Source of the DNA: Limisphaerales bacterium
GTDB taxonomy: Bacteria; Verrucomicrobiota; Verrucomicrobiia; Limisphaerales; UBA1100
Direction of reading: 5' to 3'
Assembly: GCA_014382585.1 (NCBI GenBank)
Contig: JACNJL010000026.1
Coordinates: 146,799-210,798 of the forward strand
Length of the DNA stretch: 64,000 nucleotides
Under the pieces are notes generated by a model. The model made no database searches. It was given only the letters and a program-made list of their open reading frames with translations, and was not told the DNA's origin. A program made the translations under genes and the position numbers. The stretch's first letter is position 1, and every line of letters begins with the position of its first letter. This document shows, one piece after another, positions 128-3,817 of this stretch.

Positions 128-1132
128 ATGAAACTCATCCCTCTCATTCTCACAGGGTTTTTTGCGGTGAATTTATGCGTCTTCACGTCTGCCGCGGCCG
201 ACAAAATTGCGTGGTTTGGCACGTGGCAGGGCGGCTTGGCTGAGGCGCAGCGCACGGGCAAACCGATCCTGCTCATCTCCGGCGCGCCGCAGTGCCAGAC
301 GGTGCCGGGTGTGTGGTGACCGGGCAAAACGAGCATGGACGGGAGTTTCCTGTCCCACAAATCAGTAGTCGCCGCCTCGCGCAAGTTTGTGTGCATTCGC
401 TTGGCCACTTATGAAAATGCCGCGGAAAACGAAGTGCTCAAGGGCATCTTCGCCCGCGGTGGCCAGTTGCAAAACACCGTGTTCGGCATCCTGACGCCCG
501 ATGGGAAAACATCCATTGTCCGCGCCGGCCGGAGTCCGGCATGGGCGTTTGGGGGCCAAGCTGGGCCAGGCATCCACACGCAGCCCGAGGCGGTGTTGGC
601 GAAGATGGGGGACACGATGGAGGCGATTGCCTTGGCCTATCCCGGCAAAGACAAAGCGGCCGGCACGCCGCCCGTGCCGTATCTGGCGGACCTGCGGCTG
701 GCCTTGAATGTGGCCGCAGCGGATCGCCAGCCATTGGTGGCGCTGTATTCAGCGGATCCCAAGCAGCGCGCTGCTATGGAAACCAAGCTCGCCGCGCTGG
801 CGTGGTCGGATGATTTCATCGGGCGGGCGCAATACGTTCGGGTGGGCCAATCGGATGAACTCAAGGCGATCGAAGGGCTGACGGTCAAGGCGGGCATCAT
901 TGTGATTCAGCCGGGGACATTTGGGCTGACGGGAAAGGTAATCCGGGAGATTGGGTTGGACCTGCCGTTGACTCGGTTGAAAGGACATTTTGCCTTGGGC
1001 CTGAACCAACATCAGCCCAATCAATTAAGCTATCAGGAACACCGCGCCGCGGGCGTCCGCGCCGGCAAACGCTGGGAAAGCAAGACGCCCAACACCGACA
1101 ACTCCGGCCCGCGCAACCGCCGCCGGCGTTAA
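128..1132 (+). CDS. Candidate selenoprotein, secreted thioredoxin-like (in-frame TGA read as Sec64)
   Basis: Two open stretches (128-316 and 320-1132) lie in the same frame, separated by a single TGA at 317-319. Read through, they give a 334-residue protein. The first part has a signal peptide (residues 1-23, cleavage near SAAA-D) and the start of a thioredoxin-fold strand (KPILLISGAP, 45-54). The TGA follows GVW and precedes PGKTS. Aligned by eye to thioredoxin_7-type proteins (WCxxC, then F-L, then V eleven to seventeen residues on), TGA sits exactly at the first Cys of the motif. The second Cys is replaced by Lys (W-U-P-G-K). Other Cys are C17 (in the signal peptide), C56 and C89. A SECIS-like hairpin lies at 337-355. 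Upstream AGGA at 113-116 is a weak ribosome site. The C-terminal half (about 170-334) is unrecognised and ends in a basic tail. Alternatives are a TGG/TGC-to-TGA nonsense mutation (pseudogene) or a sequencing error. The thioredoxin-like assignment is inference from a short motif. Confidence 0.7.
337..355 (+). promoter_or_regulatory. Putative bacterial SECIS stem-loop downstream of the in-frame TGA
   Basis: GGACGGG (337-343) pairs with CCTGTCC (349-355) over 7 bp, including one G-U pair, closing a 5-nt loop AGTTT. The loop begins 25 nt after the TGA at 317-319 and has G as its second base. As I recall the bacterial SECIS consensus, the apical loop lies 16-37 nt from UGA with a G in the first two loop positions, so this fits. 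The element would be read by SelB-tRNA(Sec); neither selB nor selC is in this window. Confidence 0.55.
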
Positions 1133-1169: not shown

Positions 1170-3695
1170 TTACTTTCCTTTCGCTTTTAACAACGCACGA
1201 ATCTTGGCGGGGTCCTGTCGGCCCAACGGTAGCGGCCAACCGAGAGTGTCTTTGTTGGGCTGGAATCCGTTGCCGTCGGTGTCCACCCAAATGGGGTTGA
1301 TGTAGGCGCAGGGTTTGAGACTGGCGTTGGTGCTGGTGCCGTAGCCGGTTTTGAGATCGGCGTTTTCGCCCATGGCCACGACGATGAGGTGGGCGTCTTC
1401 CTTGAGGTCCACGGTGAAGGTGGTCTCAAACACAGCGGGTGCGCTGTTGAACATCTTCGGATTTTTCTTGGCGGTGATGTTGAGGTTCGGGTCCTGCCGG
1501 CCATTGACGAGAACCTGCACGCGGTTGATGTGGACCCAGTCGGTACATTGGATTTTTACCTTCAATTTGACCTGGCCGTCCTTGACGGTGATTTCGCTTC
1601 CGGGCAGGGCGCCGTTAGCGGTTACTTCCAGAAACGGACCGGTGGTGAGCATCAGCCGGCCGGCCTTGGCGTTGCGGATGATCTCGTCCGGATCAATCTT
1701 GGCCGGCGCATCGGTGCTGCTGGGGATGTAGGTGCGCCAGCCGCCGACGCCGTTGCCGTACACGGAATGGGCGTCGGCCACGGCAATGGCCCGCGTGCGG
1801 TAGCCTTGGTTGAGCATCTGCAGCCAGATAAACTCGCGAACTTCGCGCACCCTTTCTTGCGTGCCGCGCCGGTAAAGGGTCCACGGGGCGGTGGCTAGAA
1901 TGTTGTTGCCCCGGAAGTTCTGAGACTCAAAGGCGTCGATGTATTGTTCGTACCCGGCAAAACCGCCGTCGGCCTTGCCATCCAGATTGCGGTCCCAGAA
2001 TTTCTCAGTGAGGTTGGGATGGTTGATGTGCACCCAGCGGTTGGGATTCCAACCGCCGTGGTTTTGCAGGACGATGGCATTGAGCCGCGGGTCGTTCTGG
2101 AACACGGGCGCGCCGCCGTCCTGCGCATAAGGCTGGGGCGCGGGCAAGGGAAAGGCGTTGTGATGCGAGCCGGCACCACCACCGGTGAGCTCGAGCCCGA
2201 CGATGGTGCGGAGATGCTCGGTGAGCCCGAGTTTTTTGATGTGCGGCGTCCAGTCGTAGAGGCGATTGTGCTCGGTGGTGGGCGCAAATTCGATGTGCTC
2301 GGCGGCGAGATTGATCAGGCGGTCGTCGGTGCCACACTGGTTATCGCCGCTGGGGGTGGAGTGGTTGTGGAAATCCGTGCTCACCCAGCCGACGGTGTTG
2401 ACCAACCGCTTGAGGCTACCGGTCACCGCCGCAAATTCACCGGACTTCACGGTGAGTTCGCGCACGAGATGGCTGTGCTCAATGCCGCGCGTGATGACCA
2501 ATCGATACGTCCCCGGATCAAGCGGCACGTTAAACTTGCCGGTCTCCGAGTGCCATTGGTCCACGCAACCGTGTGCGCGGTTTTGCGGGCCGAGATTGGG
2601 GGTCGCTGTGCCGTTGAGACCGCTGAACTGCACCTTGCAGGGGATCGAGTTGCCGCCGGTATCGGTGATGTTCAACGCGACCCCGGAAAGGGCGCTGAGC
2701 TTCTCGTTGAGCACCGAAGCTTGATTGCCCTTCAGGGGCACCTTGCGCTCTACGGGTGTTCGGCCGCGGGCGGTGATGCGCACGCCGTATTCCCCGTCGG
2801 GCAGGTACACGACAAACTTTCCTTGGCCCAAGGGATAACCCGGCAGCGTTTCATTGCCGTGGCGGATTTCGAAAGTGGCGTCATTCACGGGTTGTCCGAC
2901 CGGGTCTTTCAGTTCGCCGACCAGCAGGTTTTTAGCGGATGAGGCGTACACCAAGGCTTCACTTACCGCGGCGGCGGGTGAATTGGCCACGGCAAGGAAG
3001 CGCGTGTACGTCGCCGTCTCGCCTGGCTTGAGGGACAGGGATCCCGGATTTGGCGCGATGCCGCTGCGGCGTTGGCCGTTAACCCAGACAGCGGCGTAGC
3101 TGCCGCGATCGGCCGGGTCCACGGCATCAATCCAGCGCACGCCCTGGAACGTGCCGCGTTTGCCGGAGGGTTTCCAGTAGTCGTCCACACTTCCGCGGCG
3201 GGCTTCCTTGGAATCGTTGCGGTAGGTGGTGGTGATCGATACGCCACGGGACATGGCGTCCAGCCGGTACACATGTTTTTTGAAAAGCCCCTTGTTGCGT
3301 TCGGCGGCCACCACCACCTCAATCTCCGCCACGGCGTCGGCTCCGGATCCGCCAGCTTGGGTAATGCGGATGTGCGAGATGTCGCCGCGCTGGCTGCCGG
3401 GGGCAAAGATGGTGAGCTGGTCGTTTTGGCGTTTGTTTAGAGTGAGGTCATAAAGACACCCGGGTGTGATGCCGCCGGTGCCGTAAAAGGTACTCATGTT
3501 GGCCCGGCGCAGGGGTTGGTTGCCGGAAATGACGGCGGTGACGTGGTCATTGCGCAATATGAAATCGCCAATGATGCCGTCGGCTTCCTTGCCTTTGGGC
3601 AGTTGATCGGTATTGCCCGGGCCGACCTCGAACGCGGTCACGGCGGCTTGGGAGAGGAGGGGATTAAGGAATAGGAGAATGAGGAATTTCTTCAT
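1170..3695 (-). CDS. Secreted PHP-domain metal-dependent hydrolase, CehA/McbA family
   Basis: An 841-residue protein starting at the ATG 3695, chosen over an upstream in-frame ATG (3785) because it opens directly with a signal peptide (MKKFLILLFLNPLLSQAAV). Residues about 20-430 look like beta-rich modules, including a carboxypeptidase-regulatory-like stretch (DGEYGVRITARG). The PHP-type metal site begins near residue 443 with FHNHSTPSGD, followed by TTEHNR (about 473), INHPN and VADAHSVYGNGVGG near 660; these His/Asp residues are the expected metal ligands. The family includes phosphoesterases and the carbaryl hydrolase CehA, but the substrate here cannot be told. It is likely periplasmic or secreted. 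It is divergent from the pyruvate carboxylase gene and convergent with the candidate selenoprotein gene. Confidence 0.85.
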   Translation of the reverse strand: MKKFLILLFLNPLLSQAAVTAFEVGPGNTDQLPKGKEADGIIGDFILRNDHVTAVISGNQPLRRANMSTFYGTGGITPGCLYDLTLNKRQNDQLTIFAPGSQRGDISHIRITQAGGSGADAVAEIEVVVAAERNKGLFKKHVYRLDAMSRGVSITTTYRNDSKEARRGSVDDYWKPSGKRGTFQGVRWIDAVDPADRGSYAAVWVNGQRRSGIAPNPGSLSLKPGETATYTRFLAVANSPAAAVSEALVYASSAKNLLVGELKDPVGQPVNDATFEIRHGNETLPGYPLGQGKFVVYLPDGEYGVRITARGRTPVERKVPLKGNQASVLNEKLSALSGVALNITDTGGNSIPCKVQFSGLNGTATPNLGPQNRAHGCVDQWHSETGKFNVPLDPGTYRLVITRGIEHSHLVRELTVKSGEFAAVTGSLKRLVNTVGWVSTDFHNHSTPSGDNQCGTDDRLINLAAEHIEFAPTTEHNRLYDWTPHIKKLGLTEHLRTIVGLELTGGGAGSHHNAFPLPAPQPYAQDGGAPVFQNDPRLNAIVLQNHGGWNPNRWVHINHPNLTEKFWDRNLDGKADGGFAGYEQYIDAFESQNFRGNNILATAPWTLYRRGTQERVREVREFIWLQMLNQGYRTRAIAVADAHSVYGNGVGGWRTYIPSSTDAPAKIDPDEIIRNAKAGRLMLTTGPFLEVTANGALPGSEITVKDGQVKLKVKIQCTDWVHINRVQVLVNGRQDPNLNITAKKNPKMFNSAPAVFETTFTVDLKEDAHLIVVAMGENADLKTGYGTSTNASLKPCAYINPIWVDTDGNGFQPNKDTLGWPLPLGRQDPAKIRALLKAKGK

Positions 3696-3817
3696 AGCGT
3701 TGAGGGCATTGTGGCGGGGAGCAATCTGGTGGCAAGTGAATTCATTATCTCGGGCACAACGGTGAGCGTACCCCGGACTTTTCATTTCACTGGATTTTTG
3801 CTAAAAGCCTCGCGTTC

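Follow-up and report, generated by a model that had tools for sequence, protein, structure and literature searches.

A putative family of exported, two-domain thioredoxin-fold selenoproteins with a U-P-G-K active site in Verrucomicrobiota and Planctomycetota

The window analysed here, a stretch of 64,000 nucleotides from a Limisphaerales bacterium, carries on its plus strand, at positions 128-1132, a reading frame of 334 residues plus stop that is almost certainly one gene, with its single internal TGA (317-319) read through as selenocysteine 64 (Sec64). The explanation that we favour as a whole, and consider likely, is that this gene encodes an exported selenoprotein with a thiol/selenol redox role. 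On comparative grounds the insertion of Sec at position 64 is strongly supported, without biochemical or protein-level proof.

A single gene across an in-frame TGA

Frame 128-1132 contains no internal stop other than the TGA at 317-319. Read with Sec, it gives a hydrophobic leader followed by KIAWFGTW...KPILLISGAPQCQTVPGVW-U-PGKTSMDGSFLSHKSVVAASRKFVCIRLATYE. The signal peptide that the original prediction had placed upstream of the TGA was found again as a signal-peptide-like start behind ATG 128 (residues 1-24, MKLIPLILTGFFAVNLCVFTSAAA; 128-199), read off the sequence without a predictor and unstructured, with low confidence, in the AlphaFold2 model. Plausible coding sequence had likewise been claimed on both sides of the lone TGA, and substitution rates bore this out: against orthologues from the same bacterial family, dN/dS was 0.17-0.26 upstream and 0.08-0.17 downstream, ranges that comprise only the comparisons without saturation at silent sites. 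These values indicate purifying selection on both sides, and with so low a dN/dS after the TGA the downstream part is therefore not drifting, an outcome that would have refuted the prediction.

The family to which this gene belongs is a large one, widespread among planctomycetes and verrucomicrobia and for the most part planctomycetotal. Matches were found in 15 of 146 related genomes, with exactly one TGA in each matching gene, and in two further genomes of a phylum-wide Verrucomicrobiota sample. Among Planctomycetota, 70 of 392 genomes matched at E 1e-5, about 50 of them being clear members and the remainder weak matches to other thioredoxin-like proteins; the class of the genome that holds locus L026 gave matches in 43 of 398 genomes. 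Within the order to which the window belongs, 320 genomes yielded no additional family genomes, and a plasmid search returned no relatives. All these counts refer to sampled genomes of two phyla, beyond which the search consisted of one close-relative pattern scan and the plasmid search. One locus (L012, G002:C275) holds two tandem family copies, at 456-1490 and 1575-2603, with a TGA in both.

We compared codon 64 at the DNA level in 85 distinct members. It is TGA in 83, which come from Verrucomicrobiota and Planctomycetota and mostly from different genomes, and TGT (Cys) in two; homologues with TGA or Cys at this site are what the original prediction had called for, and the unrelated residue that would have spoken against it occurs in none of the 85. 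The two Cys forms, L155 (G1272) and L156 (G1097), read VSGMW-C-PGKG and retain only 3 of the 7 base pairs of the hairpin described below, with ACC and not AGT as loop codon, while their sisters L157, L158, L162 and L163 keep the TGA and 7/7 pairs. In a midpoint-rooted FastTree tree, L155 and L156 group together (support 0.998) inside a six-gene clade (support 1.0) whose remaining members all have TGA. Both Cys forms thus look derived, and the simplest reading is a single replacement of Sec by Cys in their lineage along with which the hairpin decayed. Their position inside a Sec clade and the loss of their hairpin make them a natural control that strongly favours Sec at the TGA. As far as examined, no other clear stop-free match covers codon 64: the clear match in G864, which has no stop, starts at a contig end just past this codon, and the one in G584 has its frame break downstream of an intact TGA piece.

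Around the family genes, we observed in the window a convergent neighbour of 871 residues on the minus strand (1170-3785) with a CarboxypepD_reg domain (E 3e-8), whose second half resembles by eye a metal-dependent phosphoesterase (STDFHNHS, TTEHN). In L117-L119 the selenoprotein gene is followed at 4-76 bp, on its own strand, by a sulfatase-like gene bearing a C-S-P-T-R motif, and such a gene likewise follows it in L113 and L114; these loci represent one lineage, so we draw no function from this neighbour.

A conserved hairpin and the selenocysteine machinery

The original prediction had described, about 25 nt past the TGA, a stem-loop of 7 bp with G in the second loop position, and such a hairpin is located there: positions 337-343 pair with 349-355 around the loop AGUUU (344-348), the stem starting 17 nt and the loop 24 nt past the TGA. 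Across 44 distinct sequences, pairing was present in 91.2% of cells, compared with 30-55% in slid controls, and two-sided changes occurred in 41 cells against 11.7 in shuffles, with double changes in five of the seven stem pairs. Since the hairpin region is coding, we added synonymous-codon shuffles that preserve each gene's own usage. Native stems of the family form 6.4 of 7 pairs on average against 4.3 in these shuffles (mean folding z -2.95); the window gene forms 7/7 pairs against 5.1, at -12.0 against -5.1 kcal/mol, and none of its 300 shuffles was equally stable. Moreover, the Ser codon of the loop is AGT in 58/58 genes, in contrast to 119 of the 970 Ser codons (12%) elsewhere in them. 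A few TGA members (L080, L085, L087, L164) have an irregular hairpin. Taken together, covariation and synonymous-codon shuffles identify 337-355, at the level of sequence, as a real bacterial SECIS, which is how the stem-loop had been interpreted.

The machinery that the original prediction had said to look for was found in the same genome, including the selB and tRNA-Sec whose absence would have refuted it: selB (332.7 bits), selA (471.9 bits), selD (428.9 bits) and a tRNA-Sec with anticodon TCA (67.4 bits) lie in a single cluster (C36:58230-63533), in the order tRNA-Sec, selD, selA, a transglutaminase-like gene and selB (L115 2219-7534, G000:C36). A transglutaminase-like gene is also located 5' of selB in L113 and L114, and PMC4807772 describes a transglut_core gene together with Sec-insertion genes in a Rhodopirellula-type planctomycete. 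In planctomycetote genomes, selB was detected in 39/40 with the family versus 24/40 without it (Fisher p = 2.6e-5), the search finding none in one family-positive genome, G813. It was detected as well in 15 of 17 other family-bearing genomes; the two in which it was not detected are 73% and 88% complete. In G015 and G018 the family gene follows immediately 3' of selB on the same strand. We consider it highly probable, from hairpin, machinery and codon comparison, that SelB and Sec-tRNA read UGA 317-319 as selenocysteine with the SECIS at 337-355 guiding them.

These observations also bear on other ways of explaining the stop. A lone in-frame TGA is typical of a sequencing error or of a pseudogene, but the same TGA recurs in 83 genes, most of them in different genomes, and dN/dS is well under 1 on both of its sides; comparison of independent genomes already refutes this explanation, to which we give practically no weight. 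Translation might instead insert another amino acid at the UGA, for example Trp by a near-cognate tRNA, or restart downstream, where an in-frame ATG is indeed available at 335. Family members do not, however, conserve the Met of this ATG, having for example QDEEFL or TDRSFL around it, two homologues carry Cys at the site itself, the hairpin is under selection and selB accompanies the family, which together leave decoding as another residue or a restart scarcely credible. Selenocysteine insertion remains the reading that we adopt, as none of the outcomes that would have refuted the original prediction occurred and its overall interpretation is supported.

Fold, active site and a proposed redox mechanism

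An AlphaFold2 model built with 13 sequences (pLDDT 85.7, pTM 0.84) predicts two tandem thioredoxin folds behind the signal-peptide-like leader. The first (residues 25-172; 200-643) contains Sec64 and matches thioredoxin-type structures, namely 3f9u (Z 11.2), DsbH 2ju5 (Z 10.7) and DsbD gamma (Z 10.3); the second (residues 181-293; 668-1006) is free of Cys, and residues 178-296 match thioredoxins with Z about 8.9. Among the matches listed, fold searches gave nothing beyond thioredoxin-type folds. Foldseek top matches cover both domains with low two-domain TM-scores (0.22-0.28), so an arrangement shared with PDI-like proteins is not shown; PDI and the QSOX1 oxidoreductase fragment (PDI-like, two-domain) resemble the family in their tandem thioredoxin folds but have no clear sequence kinship with it. 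Searching solved structures by sequence produced only weak AGR2/AGR3 matches, and a single-sequence model of a distant member reached pLDDT 32. Across the TGA, Thioredoxin_7 (PF13899) matches residues 29-97 with 24.4 bits, short of its gathering cut-off of 27, and the match is found at E < 0.01 in 11 of 13 aligned members. Additional stretches were noted in some relatives: in the Cys-form protein of L156 (G1097:C456), the thioredoxin part is preceded by an EF-hand-like stretch, LDVNHDQTLSAVEI...LDKNQDGALSQSEW, and the distant TGA members L022, L023, L041 and L042 have a C-terminal DRDGDGxID.

In the model, the helix that follows the first core strand begins at residue 65, which therefore places Sec64 at its start, like the first Cys of CxxC. 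An ungapped test of the downstream register against DsbD gamma scored +7.9 at offset 0 and -12.0 at the next best offset. The same test was less selective with two VPGUxxT proteins, offset 0 being best for L093 with +5 close behind, and offsets +1, 0 and -1 falling within 6 units for L094; hhalign and BLASTP against VPGUxxT proteins fix no exact column for Sec64. The assignment of Sec64 to the first-Cys place, as originally predicted, is thus supported by the downstream register and the model. With the register at offset 0, Lys67 falls at the second-Cys place and about 8 extra residues, including Cys56, precede the site. The protein contains no CxxC, UxxC or CxxU motif, and the site reads U-P-G-K (Y, F) in TGA members. 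We also considered Cys56 as the CxxC Cys, since Pfam, given the upstream half alone, places it near the Trx_7 active site; this assignment was rejected because the downstream register fits Sec64 and the model helix starts at 65.

Either Cys56 or Cys89 had been suggested as partner of Sec64. The conservation data favour Cys56 (TGC, 293-295), eight residues upstream of Sec64, as the best-conserved candidate for a resolving residue: it is Cys in 83/85 members, and the two exceptions, with site U-K-G-K, have a Cys slightly upstream in the same loop, which fits a need for Cys there. Cys89 (TGC, 392-394) is conserved less strictly, being Cys in 80/85 members and Ala in 4, among them L159 and L160 (FVAIRP), which retain Cys56 and the TGA. 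A bond between Cys56 and Sec64 is itself an inference, as is the monothiol or selenenyl chemistry suggested in the original prediction. Asn116 (473-475), at or adjoining the cis-proline place of thioredoxins as far as can be inferred from the sequence pattern, is Asn in 65/65 members that cover the position.

On this basis we propose that, once UGA 317-319 has been decoded by SelB with Sec-tRNA under guidance of the hairpin, the product would act, within the periplasm or on the surface of the cell, as a peroxidase or a thiol/selenol oxidoreductase. The selenolate of Sec64 would attack an oxidised substrate, which may be a disulfide, a peroxide or a sulfoxide. Cys56, which lies in the loop that immediately precedes the active site, would resolve the intermediate into a Cys56-Sec64 selenenylsulfide, and a thiol donor of the envelope would reduce the latter. 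The second, Cys-free thioredoxin fold may serve as a binding platform for a substrate or partner. The chain of Sec64 attack, resolution by Cys56, selenenylsulfide formation and extracytoplasmic redox action is inferred without activity or distance data, and we rate its chances as even. Our best guess for the substrate, in the absence of data on substrate or donor, is a peroxide or a disulfide.

Relation to known selenoproteins and significance

The closest known systems share the first domain only in part. VPGUxxT type 2 (NF041383; OS_HP5) is, like the studied family, an exported-looking Thioredoxin_7 protein whose first active-site position is Sec, and hhalign aligns the two over about 104 columns (probability 91.7%, E 7.6e-7). 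It keeps a UxxC site, however, VPGU-RTC and VPGU-GPC in L093 and L094, and its second half differs, being MsrA-like in L093, whereas the studied family combines C-x7-U-PG(K/Y) with a second thioredoxin fold. The Trx7/PDZ selenoprotein (NF041199), whose motif is CxxU and whose family name includes a PDZ domain (PMC13188914), is also a Thioredoxin_7 protein with Sec and matches weakly over residues 28-96. DsbD gamma and DsbH-type domains share the fold of residues 25-172 but use CxxC in place of U-P-G-K preceded by about 8 extra residues with Cys56, and other Sec thioredoxins have Sec at the same first active-site position of the thioredoxin fold (PMC13188914) but keep the resolving Cys of UxxC where the studied family has Lys or Tyr. 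Among the VPGUxxT type 2 genes, that of L093 (1456-2349, G632:C13) has two in-frame TGAs, the second within an MsrA-like motif, AMT-U-FW (PMSR Pfam E 9e-4), which suggests a double selenoprotein, thioredoxin and MsrA-like in one; where this second TGA stands, L094 has Cys. A separate minus-strand frame in the L093 genome (L108, G632:C49), FALG-U-FWGPDARFGSLPGV, looks like a Sec-containing MsrA.

Two further readings accept selenocysteine and dispute either the family or its chemistry. That the gene is merely a divergent VPGUxxT or Trx7/PDZ member, with no family of its own, could be argued from the alignable thioredoxin part and from the NCBIfam matches, yet these reach only 16.9 bits for NF041383 and 13.1 bits for NF041199, far under the cut-offs of 275 and 300; moreover, G632 and G386 bear the studied family and, as separate genes, the true VPGUxxT of L093 and L094, with VPGU-x-x-C and another second half. 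We hold this reading to be very improbable, and by its sequences the family is distinct from the VPGUxxT and Trx7/PDZ selenoproteins. Somewhat less remote, though still unlikely, is a true selenoprotein in which Sec64 does not undergo redox cycling and binds a metal or carries selenium: neither CxxC nor UxxC is present, Asn116 is near-invariant and Cys56 is conserved, and the lack of the CxxC Cys, together with an Asn close to the cis-Pro place, would make room for a ligand site to which Cys56 or Cys89 contributes. A three-ligand site would need Cys89, however, which is Ala in four members, and the point where the active-site helix begins, at which Sec64 sits, is the usual redox position in a thioredoxin fold. 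A redox role for Sec64 is accordingly the reading that we retain.

The window protein reached no curated cut-off in Pfam or NCBIfam, its motif and architecture do not appear among the 119 prokaryotic selenoprotein families tabulated in 2026 (PMC13188914), and in the literature searched, which did not cover the candidates of table S9 in PMC4807772, no paper was found that joins UPGK with selenocysteine. The family is thus missing from the published list that we checked, though neither this nor the literature search proves that it has gone unseen. Only two Cys forms were found, in contrast to the 155 Cys homologues of GOS_A (PMC2398784), and the authors of deep-Sep note that filtering may discard selenoproteins lacking Cys homologues (PMC12013277), a blind spot that this family illustrates. 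Gene callers that stop at the TGA split each family gene in two.

The active site departs from both UxxC and CxxU, so the family poses a testable question, namely how a thioredoxin fold operates when it has a single Sec and its Cys has moved elsewhere. A broader interpretation, which we put forward tentatively and hold slightly less probable than its opposite, is that this is a near-purely Sec family, missed through the reliance of search methods on Cys homologues, and that its unusual site would combine U-P-G-K, a resolving Cys eight residues upstream and an Asn in or adjoining the cis-proline place. If this were true, the family would carry out an envelope redox chemistry unlike that of other known selenoenzymes, and many planctomycetes and verrucomicrobia may keep their Sec machinery partly for it.
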